Part shown: positions 37,150 through 39,635 of the stretch, in pieces
Numbering within the stretch: the first letter of the stretch is position 1
Layout: the number at the start of each line of letters is the position of its first letter
NCBI GenBank assembly: GCA_903917565.1
Contig: CAIXBB010000001.1
Coordinates: 124,001-188,000 of the forward strand
Source of the DNA: an uncultured cyanobacterium
GTDB lineage: Bacteria > Cyanobacteriota > Cyanobacteriia > PCC-6307 > Cyanobiaceae
Reading direction: 5' to 3'
Length of the DNA stretch: 64,000 bases
Notes under the pieces: model-generated
Told to the model about the DNA's origin: nothing
The model's input: only the letters and a program-made list of their open reading frames with translations
The model's database searches: none
Program-made: the position numbers and the translations under genes

Positions 37150-37644
37150 ATGAGCGTCGTTCGCGATCTGATCCTCCAGGCCGATGATCAGCTCCGCTAT
37201 CCCACGGGCGGCGAGCTGCGCACGATGGTGGAGTTCCTCAGTGGGGGAGCCCGCCGGCTGAGCGTCGTCAAGGTGCTGACCGACAACGAGAAGAAGATCA
37301 TCGCCGAGGCCTCGAAGCAACTGTTCCTACGCAAGCCGGAGTACGTGGCCCCCGGCGGCAACGCCTTCGGACAGAAGCAGCGTGCCCAGTGCCTGCGCGA
37401 CTACAGCTGGTACCTGCGGCTGGTGACCTACGGGATCCTGGCCGGCAGCACCGAGCTGATCCAGCAGATCGGCGTGGTGGGTGCCCGGGAGATGTACAAC
37501 AGCCTGGGTGTCCCCCTGCCCGGCATGGTGGAAGCGATGCGCGCGCTCAAGGAGGCGGCTCTGGTGTTGCTCGGTGGCGACGAGGCCGCCCTGGCAGGCC
37601 CCTACTTCGACTATCTCATCCAGGGGCTGCAGACTTCCACTTGA
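37150..37644 (+). CDS. apcD: Allophycocyanin alpha-B subunit
   Basis: Terminal-emitter biliprotein of the phycobilisome core, passing excitation energy mainly to photosystem I. The 164-residue globin-fold product starts MSVVRDLILQADDQLRYPT, and the bilin-binding Cys81 is in RAQCLRDYSWYLRL. GGNAFGQKQ and REMYNSLGVPLPGMVEAMRALK are further phycobiliprotein signatures. Features that separate it from ApcA are the LILQADDQLRYPTGGEL start and GQKQRAQCLRDY. It stands alone, away from the apcABC operon. Followed by a strong terminator at 37719. Confidence 0.93.
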   Translation: MSVVRDLILQADDQLRYPTGGELRTMVEFLSGGARRLSVVKVLTDNEKKIIAEASKQLFLRKPEYVAPGGNAFGQKQRAQCLRDYSWYLRLVTYGILAGSTELIQQIGVVGAREMYNSLGVPLPGMVEAMRALKEAALVLLGGDEAALAGPYFDYLIQGLQTST

Positions 37645-37718
37645 GGTCTTGCCGGTCCCAGTCTGGTCTTGTCGCTAGACCCATATCGAGTCTCAGTTGA
37701 GATGTTCAAGCCGATTCG

Positions 37719-37753
37719 GAACCCCCGTCTTTCGCTTGATGGGGGTTCTTTTT
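37719..37753 (+). terminator. Rho-independent terminator downstream of apcD
   Basis: Perfect 8-bp stem GAACCCCC (37719-37726) with GGGGGTTC (37741-37748), a 14-nt loop, then TTTTT at 37749-37753. Located 75 bp past the apcD stop. It is the most convincing intrinsic terminator in the window, which fits a highly expressed antenna gene. Confidence 0.85.
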
Positions 37754-38197
37754 GATGCAAGGGCTGGGGTCTTCAAGCCGTTGTCAACCGACGAAGGGTC
37801 CGCGACACTGAGGTATCGCATATCCCTGCTGGGTCCCATTCGGTGTCTTGTGGATAGACCTACCTGAGCCAGCTGAGCAACAGGTTTCCGACTTCGGGTC
37901 CGGGCCCGTTGGCCCCACGGCGGGGACGGCGTAAGACCCATCAATGGGCACGATCCACGAGGACCAACCGTGAACCTGGCCACCTGGGCGGAACCCCCGT
38001 GGTGAATGGCGCGCCTGTGGAACGTGGCAGGCCAGAGGCGCGATCAGCCAATACGAAAACATAACCCGGCTGTCTCATCTGGGACAAGCTGCTGGTCCCA
38101 GGTCAGGACGCATTCAAGATGGCTCTGTGCCTTGGCTGGCTGGCGAGGCCGGTCCTTCGCGTTCCGTCGAACGGTTGATAGTCCTCCGATCTGGCTC

Positions 38198-38224
38198 GCG
38201 TATCTGTGTCATAGACAGATACGC
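38198..38224. repeat. Perfect 10-bp inverted repeat (GCGTATCTGT / ACAGATACGC)
   Basis: GCGTATCTGT (38198-38207), a 7-nt spacer, then ACAGATACGC (38215-38224), perfectly complementary. It could form a stable hairpin or serve as a dimeric repressor site. The following bases (AGTCTTTC) are only weakly T-rich, so a terminator is unlikely. Confidence 0.7.
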
Positions 38225-38387
38225 AGTCTTTCAAGACCTAGATCTGCAAAGGATTCTCGAGAGTTGTCCAGCGCCATGGACAGCGTGGAGTGTCGTTGGC
38301 CAGTCCATGCCAGCCAACGGTCTGCATGACACCAGGGGACGGTGAGTCAGAAGCCGGGCTCGACAGATGAAATCGAGGAAAAATCTC

Positions 38388-38419
38388 TGTATTGCAACCT
38401 GCAAATTGGTCGCAATACA
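38388..38419. repeat. 12-bp inverted repeat (TGTATTGCAACC / GGTCGCAATACA)
   Basis: Arms 38388-38399 and 38408-38419 match at 11 of 12 positions, with an 8-nt centre TGCAAATT. Such a long, AT-containing dyad in an otherwise GC-rich genome is a typical operator shape or the stem of a small RNA. It lies about 170 bp past the 3' end of the minus-strand DnaJ gene. Confidence 0.65.
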
Positions 38420-38588
38420 AGACCCAGAACGAGTCCAATAGCAATCTAGTGAGACTTGCAGAGCAGCAGGATCGTTCTTGGTCCATCTCGCAAATCTTGC
38501 TCAGGTCCCGTGGCAGGACCATCGATGCGACCAAGCTGAGACAAGTGACTTGACCCCGTGGCCAGAAGCGCCGGGGTGGGTCGGGCCC

Positions 38589-39635
38589 TCAGCGCTCGAC
38601 CGAAGCCCCCTGGCGATAGAGCTCTTTCAACAGCTGGTAGGCCTCGTTCAGGCGGCGCATCGCTTCCAGTGAGCCACCGGCGTCGGGATGGTGGCTCTGG
38701 GCCATGTCCCGGTAGGCCTCCCGGATCTGGGCCAGGGTCAGGCGCTGGCCGTGATCCGTGGGCAACTGCAGCAGTCGCAGCGCGCCGTGCAGGGTCATGG
38801 TGTGCTCGAGGGTCTGGAAGGAGGTGCCCCGCCGGCGCCGGCGGAAGCGATGCACGAAGCGACGGATCAGGGTCGGGATCCGCAGGGTGAGGGTCTGACC
38901 GCTGAAGGGGTCCTCCAGCACACCGGCGGTGACCATGACCTGCTCGAACGTCGGCGCCCCATCGCTCCAGCCGGGGGCGAACTGCTGCATCACCTGGCAG
39001 GCAGCCGACCAGGTGAAGGTCCGGCCATCGCTCTGGTCGGACTGGGGCCAGATGTCCTGGGCCAGCCAGACCATCGCCGCCTCCAGCACCGCGTCGTTGG
39101 CCGGCGAGCCATAGAGGGCCCGCCAATGGTTTCCGGCTTCCTCCAGGGCCTGTTGCACCAGCTCCCCGCCAAGCGGTGGCAGGGGAGTCAGGGGCATCGC
39201 CCCGGCCCGCGCCTGGGAGGGCGGCCGCAGGCTGCGCTTGATGACATCGGAGCGGCGACGTACGAAACCGGGCAGGTCGATGCCCCCACCACCCTGCAAT
39301 GGTCGGGGGGGTGTCTCCATCGGAGCTTCCCATTCGAATTCCGCCTGGAGCGTGTCCAGCGCCCCGCGCCCCACCAGCACCAGGGCTCCCTGCTCATCGA
39401 AGTCCCGGTGGTCATCACCGTGAGGCAGGTCGTCGCCGGACGCTGGCGAGAGCCCGTCGTCGTCCCCTTCCTCGCCGGAACCGAACAGATCGTCGAGCAG
39501 CCGCTCCAGCACATCGCCCCGGCTGCGGAGGCCCCACTCCCGCCGCAGGCCATCCAGGTGGGACACCAGCTCCCGGGTGAGGTCGAGGCTGATCCGCTGT
39601 CTGGCCTCGTTCGACTGTTCAGCCACGGCAGCCAT
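38589..39635 (-). CDS. J-domain (DnaJ-like) protein with N-terminal RHH-like segment
   Basis: A 348-residue protein. The C-terminal ~60 residues are a J domain (QRLTLAQIREAYRDMAQSHHPDAGGSLEAMRRLNEAYQLL) with the HPD tripeptide that stimulates Hsp70. The N-terminus (RISLDLTRELVSHLDGLRREWGLRSRGDVLERLLDDLF) resembles a ribbon-helix-helix or short helical dimerisation unit. The middle is unassigned and includes an acidic linker and a basic patch (RRFVHRFRRRRRGTSF). No Gly/Phe or zinc-finger region, so a specialised J-protein rather than DnaJ itself. Client unknown. Confidence 0.8.
   Translation of the reverse strand: MAAVAEQSNEARQRISLDLTRELVSHLDGLRREWGLRSRGDVLERLLDDLFGSGEEGDDDGLSPASGDDLPHGDDHRDFDEQGALVLVGRGALDTLQAEFEWEAPMETPPRPLQGGGGIDLPGFVRRRSDVIKRSLRPPSQARAGAMPLTPLPPLGGELVQQALEEAGNHWRALYGSPANDAVLEAAMVWLAQDIWPQSDQSDGRTFTWSAACQVMQQFAPGWSDGAPTFEQVMVTAGVLEDPFSGQTLTLRIPTLIRRFVHRFRRRRRGTSFQTLEHTMTLHGALRLLQLPTDHGQRLTLAQIREAYRDMAQSHHPDAGGSLEAMRRLNEAYQLLKELYRQGASVER

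Follow-up and report, generated by a model that had tools for sequence, protein, structure and literature searches.

The spacer and its neighbors

The spacer under study occupies positions 37645–38588 of the 64,000-nucleotide stretch of cyanobacterial DNA that was analyzed (the window) and separates two convergent genes whose 3' ends face each other (Table 1). The upstream gene, named apcD in the original prediction, encodes an allophycocyanin-type protein whose top NCBIfam model is ApcA, with a score of 194 bits that lies under the model's cut-off of 270. In the downstream gene, the Pfam DnaJ model scores 26.6 bits, slightly under its cut-off of 27.8. The original prediction had singled out positions 37754–38588, and both the sequence and the coordinates of that segment are borne out. 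It was described as lower in GC than its flanks, and GC content is indeed 0.586 there vs. 0.684 across the window, with 14 of 1264 sliding 835-bp windows of lower GC. It was also described as holding no credible gene, which agrees with the behavior of the 26 open reading frames in the spacer: their matches to the spacers of relatives are weak, occur in several frames and on both strands, and favor no standing frame, a pattern that conservation at the nucleotide level would give. A search for copies of the spacer elsewhere in the same genome returned matches of chance size only.

The two inverted repeats reported earlier are present as described. Dyad 1 is a perfect 10-bp repeat (arms 38198–38207 and 38215–38224), and dyad 2 pairs at 11 of 12 positions (arms 38388–38399 and 38408–38419). 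Each is rarely matched by dinucleotide shuffles, since with loops of 3–10 one or more perfect 10-bp dyads arose in 3 of 200 shuffles, and one or more 12-bp dyads with no more than one mismatch in 5 of 200. Conservation in close relatives, named at the outset as the test of the dyads, gave a split result. Dyad 1 is strongly conserved, in line with the view that the spacer is not idle. Dyad 2 is not: in the 11 other close relatives in which the neighboring box can be placed, its pairing reaches at best 6–9 of 12 positions vs. 11 of 12 here, which rules it out as a conserved element. From its sequence, dyad 2 is read as a putative terminator-like hairpin particular to this genome and outside the conserved site. 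The neighboring box, GAAAAATCTCTGTAT, is conserved in close relatives and sits between the arm repeats described below and the dnaJ-side gene.

Table 1. Features of the spacer and its borders (positions in the window).
Feature	Position	Strand	Basis or remark
Allophycocyanin-type gene (apcD of the original prediction)	37150–37644	+	Open reading frame and Pfam Phycobilisome, 190 bits; stop at 37644 borders the spacer
Intrinsic-terminator-like hairpin for the allophycocyanin-type gene	37718–37749	+	Hairpin 3' of the stop
Core of the composite site (palindrome 38198–38224 plus two outer bases per side)	38196–38226	.	Arms GCGTAYCTG and CAGRTACGC, 9-bp center
Asymmetric 9-bp center TGTCATAGA	38207–38215	.	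Host logos: left inner half better conserved than right
Accessory region (A-rich 38233–38235, T-rich 38254–38256)	38233–38256	+	Conserved, dnaJ side
Arm-type repeat 1, TGTCCA	38265–38270	+	Repeat counts and alignment
Arm-type repeat 2, TGGACA	38277–38282	+	Repeat counts and alignment
Possible degenerate extra arm repeats TGGCCA and AGTCCA (one mismatch each)	38297–38307	+	Inferred
Box GAAAAATCTCTGTAT	38378–38392	+	Located by a simple pattern; 12 of the 16 close relatives have it, counting this genome
Dyad 2, putative terminator-like hairpin of the dnaJ-side gene	38387–38420	-	Near-perfect in this genome
Gene with C-terminal DnaJ domain	38589–39635	-	Open reading frame and Pfam; convergent; its stop starts at 38589

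Conservation of the core site

When the region was searched against 42 genomes of the genus, 41 matched, chiefly through the two flanking genes. The spacer alone matched 29 of 197 relatives at E ≤ 0.01, and the matches in members of the genus consist mostly of one short island, query positions 442–470, that is dyad 1. Both flanking genes lie on one contig in 36 genomes, comprising 34 of the genus (including this one) as well as G094 and G300 from other genera; in the remaining 8 of the 42 genus genomes the genes lie apart, are cut or are missing. All 36 spacers lie between convergent genes and are long (874 to 3383 bp, GC 0.50–0.65), and all 36 contain the palindrome GCGTAYCTG-N9-CAGRTACGC, with some variants. 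Their mismatches to the close-relative consensus number 0–6, vs. a minimum of 8 in shuffled spacers.

A scan of named genomes with the core pattern matched at least 117 stretches. Among the matches listed, many belong to Synechococcus, Cyanobium and Vulcanococcus and one to Prochlorococcus, with the same genes nearby, while the others come from unrelated bacteria that lack the flanking genes, as expected by chance. One sequence labelled as a Bifidobacterium breve MAG (CALPNT020000153.1; L196) has the cyanobacterial site together with the DnaJ-domain gene, and from this content its label or bin looks wrong.

Flanking genes allowed 115 sites to be oriented, 111 of them within three mismatches. 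Restriction to sites with no more than two mismatches and whole flanks left 109, and the 104 that were non-redundant yielded the logo TTGCGTACCTGTGTCTAAA(A/G)CAGGTACGCAA, with an asymmetric center. The exact core pattern, which by itself fixes the arms, was the source of 56 of the 111 sites, and a separate logo was made from the remaining 55. In these pattern-free sites GCGTA-CTG and CAG-TACGC are nearly invariant, with no letter falling below 51 of 55. Positions 6 and 22 are variable yet complementary, in 92 of 110 sites and in 44 of 55 of the unbiased set. In some sites (G094, L291, L316) one arm reads CAGTGACGC in place of CAGRTACGC.

One-sided repeats beside the core

Conservation continues beyond the palindrome on the dnaJ side, where A-rich positions (+36 to +38) and T-rich positions (+57 to +59) are followed by TGTCCA/TGGACA hexamers. 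In counts made over 150 bp on each side of 103 non-redundant sites, the dnaJ side contains 129 copies of TGGACA vs. 3 on the other side, and 54 of TGTCCA vs. 5, so that the two hexamers sum to 183 on the dnaJ side vs. 8 opposite, with ~5 expected. Shuffles of the dnaJ-side sequence give 3.5 TGGACA and 2 TGTCCA. No other hexamer is present in as many dnaJ-side flanks as TGGACA, and at least one repeat is found at 91 of the 103 sites on this side and at 7 of the 103 on the opposite side. The same bias is seen at 54 sites obtained without the core pattern (104 repeats vs. 4), and TGTCCA is invariant among 16 aligned close relatives. Core, accessory region and repeats together span ~110 bp.

Copy number and distribution across the family

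Presence of the site was scored in 280 genomes of the family with the pattern GCGTANCTG-N9-CAGNTACGC, allowing at most one mismatch. It was matched in 169 genomes, including 130 of the 187 of high quality, and 163 of these 169 have exactly one match while 6 have two. A control pattern, the same motif read backwards, matched 26 of the 280 genomes when counted by eye, so that a minority of the single site matches may be chance. Of the six two-copy genomes (G063, G103, G228, G254, G283 and G454), G103 and G228 were the two sampled over 200 kb around the site and have one core each there; the second match of G063 looks like chance.

Tallies by genus and of absences, both for the site and for the recombinase described below, were made by eye. 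The site was found at no more than one mismatch in 4 of 20 genomes of genus g56, where the copy beside dnaJ in G096 has two mismatches. At the same threshold it was found in 0 of 20 genomes of genus g17, which is probably high-light Prochlorococcus, and in 0 of 10 of genus g8, though the recombinase is present in both genera; in the g17 genome G057, no site was seen near dnaJ.

Position at the replication terminus

The cyanobacterial oriC lies near dnaN. As dnaA and dnaN lie apart, dnaN rather than dnaA was used as the origin marker, a choice that the two AT-skew halves of G050 support. The distance between the site and dnaN is 0.445–0.494 of the circle in 14 of 15 complete genomes, the exception being G094 at 0.362. 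A control gene, that of the recombinase, lies at a median of 0.328 from dnaN, with its position in G044 assumed from among three matches. This position is consistent over a range of genome sizes from 1.7 to 3.9 Mb. In G094, the variant arm CAGTGACGC occurs together with the off-antipode position of the site.

Strand composition was examined around the site as well. All 10 windows sampled ahead of the site in G050 have negative AT skew, and all 10 sampled beyond it have positive AT skew. Local AT profiles place the change point 8 kb from the site in G050, 23 kb in G079 and 17 kb in G071 (R2 0.28–0.32), distances that are bounded by the 90–160 kb covered by the profiles, which were centered near the site. 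GC skew in G050 shows no switch at the site, most of its values being positive up to 1.18 Mb. The GC change points are poor (R2 ≤ 0.13), at distances of 33, 3 and 76 kb from the site in G050, G079 and G071, respectively, and GC skew was uninformative in contig 1 of this genome (G000) and in the sampled part of G002. Considered jointly, the dnaN distance and AT skew locate the site at the terminus of replication, which it marks.

A conserved tyrosine recombinase

PF00589, a tyrosine recombinase domain, is matched in every genome tested, with exactly one match in G050, G071 and G079. A shared tyrosine recombinase of ~380–460 residues is found in 260 of the 280 family genomes and in 183 of the 187 of high quality. 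Its gene in this genome lies outside the window (G000:C5:67745-68917), on a contig other than that of the site (C1), and in G002 it is 518 kb from the site; in neither genome does it show the lambda-type arrangement of an integrase gene adjoining its site on a mobile element. Among 21 aligned members, identity to the copy of this genome is 51–91 percent. R244, K271, R336, H359 and Y368, which we take to be the catalytic residues of a tyrosine recombinase, are invariant in all 21, and position 333 is Y.

The recombinase exceeds the cut-off of PF00589 and lies well below those of the Xer models, the G004 protein scoring 20 bits against XerA (cut-off 220), 18 against XerS (267) and 15 against XerD (330), short of all three equivalog thresholds. 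Since these cut-offs are not reached, the enzyme is not filed as Xer; it is the site that would work like dif. AlphaFold2 predicts a strand-strand-strand-helix N-terminal domain, with a mean pLDDT of 92 when folded alone, and the full model contains core-binding helices and a catalytic domain that is poorly predicted at its end, residues 346–376 (mean pLDDT 78, pTM 0.47). Of the 21 members, 7 match PF12167 (Arm-DNA-bind_2) at E ≤ 1, with a best value of 9e-4, and the protein of this genome scores 16.4 bits vs. a cut-off of 22. The top Foldseek matches are XerA structures (E 2e-5), and the N-terminal domain alone gave no Foldseek match at E ≤ 0.001. VIA-align returned XerA, lambda integrase and XerH at Z 9–11 (rmsd 6.5–25); lambda integrase was placed from model residue 2 at Z 9.8 but with an rmsd of 24. 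On these models, the N-terminal domain is a candidate arm-binding domain.

The link between recombinase and site consists of their shared distribution and of domain logic. A site match persists in 8 of the 20 genomes without a recombinase match, and 7 of these 8 are <90 percent complete (by eye). Four high-quality genomes lack the recombinase, and three of them (G065, G089 and G444) also appear by eye to be without the site. Both are present in other members of the genus to which G444 belongs, and the joint absence looks like a natural loss. Further tyrosine recombinase genes occur ~9–13 kb from dnaN in G002, G004, G016 and G000, where they perhaps mark an integration hot spot near the origin.

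The site in phage contigs

The palindrome GCGTAYCTG-N9-CAGRTACGC is also carried by at least 120 IMG/VR contigs. Spacing is specific, with at least 120 viral matches for N9 as compared to 7 for N8 and 1 for N10, and a scrambled palindrome of equal make-up gave 1 viral match. Among the matches listed, the host flanking genes were matched in none of 120 viral loci. Terminases of a T7-like type are encoded at 57 of these 120 listed loci and terminases of an unrelated type at 19, for a total of 76 with cyanophage-like terminases, and neither was present in the stretch examined at the other 44. The closest named relatives of the two representatives are all cyanophages, namely P60 and Syn5, at 68 percent, for one and MED4-184, KBS-S-2A and S-H1, at 42–44 percent, for the second. 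The site is absent from the isolated cyanophages P60, Syn5, S-CBP1, MED4-184 and P-GSP1, while KBS-S-2A has a half-like match only. DNA look-ups with three phage-site regions left two unmatched and matched one to an uncultured relative.

Of the 120 listed loci, 117 had flanks, 83 were non-redundant at 150 bp and 51 could be oriented. TGGACA/TGTCCA is again the top hexamer, being found near 62 of the 83 listed non-redundant phage sites, with 8.8 expected, and far repeats (60–115) occur on one side only at 53 of these 83 sites, on both sides at 1 and on neither at 29. An earlier phage flank logo had been oriented by the host flank and was hence biased; orientation by the far repeats was used instead. 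The 51 sites oriented in this way share the host accessory profile at positions 30–59 with a correlation of 0.41, which rises to 0.59 for the inner part shifted by one base and is 0.05 for the mirrored profile. The 9-bp center is hardly conserved among the phage sites listed. When the 120 listed phage 27-mers were compared with 53 from hosts, 3 proved identical to a host 27-mer and 5 had a center in common with one, and with so few identical sequences, integration at the host site by strand exchange is not supported as a general phage use. CCCCCC, on either strand, occurs near 54 of the 83 listed non-redundant loci (L346–L465), where 15 are expected.

Interpretation and competing explanations

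Taken together, a usually single site at the terminus, inverted arms, a fixed asymmetric center, one-sided repeats and one conserved recombinase make a dif-like site the best reading. We assign a probability of about 0.62 to the proposal, drawn from comparison of sequences, that the spacer holds a dif-like composite site for site-specific recombination at the terminus and that a core tyrosine recombinase uses it. The core has the dif layout, measuring ~28–31 bp with two inverted ~11-bp arms and 9 bp between CTG and CAG. It is a single-copy feature of the terminus, as dif is, although 6 of the 169 genomes with the site show a second match and GC skew is not concordant. Arm-type repeats lie beside this core as they do in att sites, and the recombinase may read them. 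The candidate recombinase is probably the user of the site, and the purpose would be the resolution of chromosome dimers. Genera g17 and g8, in which the recombinase is present and the site is not found at ≤1 mismatch, are unexplained by this dif-like reading.

Under the mechanism we propose, one chromosomal tyrosine recombinase would bind the two core arms via its core-binding and catalytic domains, and its N-terminal arm-binding domain would bind the TGGACA repeats. Once replication has duplicated the site, recombination between its two copies would convert joined sister chromosomes into two, and cyanophages with the composite site may use or divert the host enzyme. A broader version of the idea, which we put forward tentatively and at slightly less than even odds, is that the picocyanobacteria (Cyanobium, marine Synechococcus, and Prochlorococcus) resolve dimers by a lambda-integrase-like machine that phages with the site join or compete with. 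In such a machine one core recombinase would replace the Xer pair, and its arm-binding domain would read the one-sided TGGACA array beside the terminus palindrome. Carriage of the composite site by two unrelated cyanophage lineages would allow phage genomes to enter or compete for the terminus recombination complex of the host.

The location at the terminus, the usually single copy and the arrayed repeats beside the palindrome would also suit a terminus mark bound by a protein other than a recombinase, such as a fork trap, an anchor or a centromere-like segregation site, with phages borrowing or blocking that protein; the center of the phage sites, being hardly conserved, may likewise be mere spacer. 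We consider such a mark unlikely. Tus- and RTP-type fork traps are not known to consist of one site per chromosome, several polar sites around the terminus being the expected arrangement, whereas 163 of the 169 genomes that contain the site have a single match. The host center, moreover, is fixed in length, asymmetric and conserved, in keeping with strand exchange, and nearly all high-quality genomes encode a core tyrosine recombinase whose predicted domain would fit.

Less probable still is that the spacer holds the attachment site of a widespread integrase, the target of a domesticated or selfish element, with the terminus position being secondary. Phage contigs do have the core, with the repeats present in many of them as well, spacer length varies from 874 to 3383 bp, and an arm-binding domain strongly predicts mobile-element integrases, according to excerpts of a survey of tyrosine recombinases (PMC8138268). 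The enzyme in question, however, is encoded by a core gene (260 of 280 genomes; 51–91 percent identity in 21 members) that does not lie beside the site, the two-copy genomes G103 and G228 show one core each over 200 kb, and the terminus position is stable over genomes of 1.7 to 3.9 Mb. Among the suggestions of the original prediction, that of an integration scar came nearest, insofar as the site resembles a recombination site; no sign of a past insertion was seen.

A small RNA, which had also been suggested, or a bidirectional transcription terminator between the convergent genes is very improbable as the source of the hairpin. The genes are convergent, a 10-bp stem would form in RNA too, and positions 6 and 22 vary while staying complementary in most sites. 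No Rfam family reached its cut-off within the spacer, however, at gathering or at relaxed thresholds, no sigma-70-like promoter was found in 37400–38700, and a T-run is absent at dyad 1. Except at positions 6 and 22, the arms are nearly invariant by letter, the signal in the flanks consists of one-sided repeats, and the same site, with a center fixed at 9 bp, recurs in phage contigs. The remaining suggestion, a decayed or transferred gene with the dyads as leftovers, is in line with a GC content below that of the flanks and is scarcely tenable given a long spacer with the core at the same place in 36 of 36 genomes, at GC 0.50–0.65.

Significance

As excerpts of the study by Kono et al. state (PMC3025954), dif prediction succeeded in none of 5 cyanobacteria, and cyanobacterial Xer and dif were thought too divergent. 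The failure of dif prediction in all cyanobacteria tried there left the end of their chromosome cycle without a defined site. A 110-bp site and one recombinase make this question of the cyanobacterial chromosome end testable. Excerpts of the literature on cyanobacterial dif and Xer, the Prochlorococcus terminus, FtsK and cyanophage dif yielded no published account of the site. The cyanophage-like contigs that carry it point to phages interacting with the segregation of host chromosomes, an interaction of which no description was found in the literature searched. A terminus site also bears on the DNA of Prochlorococcus vesicles, which peaks at the terminus according to excerpts of the report (PMC10913375), where the terminus of MED4 is placed at 826–832 kb.

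Comparison with known systems

In the excerpts consulted, dif is described as one site of ~28 bp with inverted ~11-bp arms that lies at the terminus, is served by a tyrosine recombinase and is exploited by mobile elements (PMC3025954, PMC5357621). The present site shares with XerCD/dif its inverted ~11-bp arms around a short center, its location at the terminus, an associated tyrosine recombinase and carriage by mobile elements. It differs in having one recombinase candidate rather than a pair, far under the cut-offs of XerD and related models, and in the one-sided TGTCCA/TGGACA repeats that adjoin the core.

Closer in enzyme number are XerS/difSL, XerH/difH, XerL/dif and XerA/dif, in which a single recombinase acts with an atypical dif, and the nearest solved folds to the candidate include XerA and XerH. 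The XerL system of Legionella, a divergent single-recombinase system, was discovered via the dif mimic of a mobile element, as excerpts of its description relate (PMC9765430), and by analogy XerL is a precedent for this system. The genes for XerS and XerH adjoin or lie near their sites, according to excerpts of the relevant account (PMC5357621), whereas the recombinase gene is distant here. Accessory repeats and an arm-binding domain, which are features of the present system, are not mentioned for XerS, XerH, XerL or XerA in the portions of the literature compared.

A possible relationship within the cyanobacteria is suggested by the survey of tyrosine recombinases, excerpts of which describe some cyanobacteria without Xer but with a 'Cyan' subgroup proposed as a stand-in (PMC8138268). 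The 'Cyan' recombinases are described there as a simple type lacking an arm-binding domain, whereas the candidate has a predicted one, the two having been compared by description; a target site for the subgroup is not given in the survey text compared (PMC8138268).

The lambda-type att systems share with the present one a core site with arm-type repeats and an enzyme with, as predicted here, N-terminal arm-binding-like, core-binding and catalytic domains. They differ in that the recombinase is here a chromosomal core gene with a fixed site at the terminus rather than part of a prophage module, and in that the arm repeats of the host lie on one side only. If the recombinase reads these repeats, chromosome dimer resolution can follow a lambda-type plan, and such a plan, if true, would cut across the rule, given in excerpts of the survey, that an arm-binding domain predicts the integrases of mobile elements (PMC8138268).
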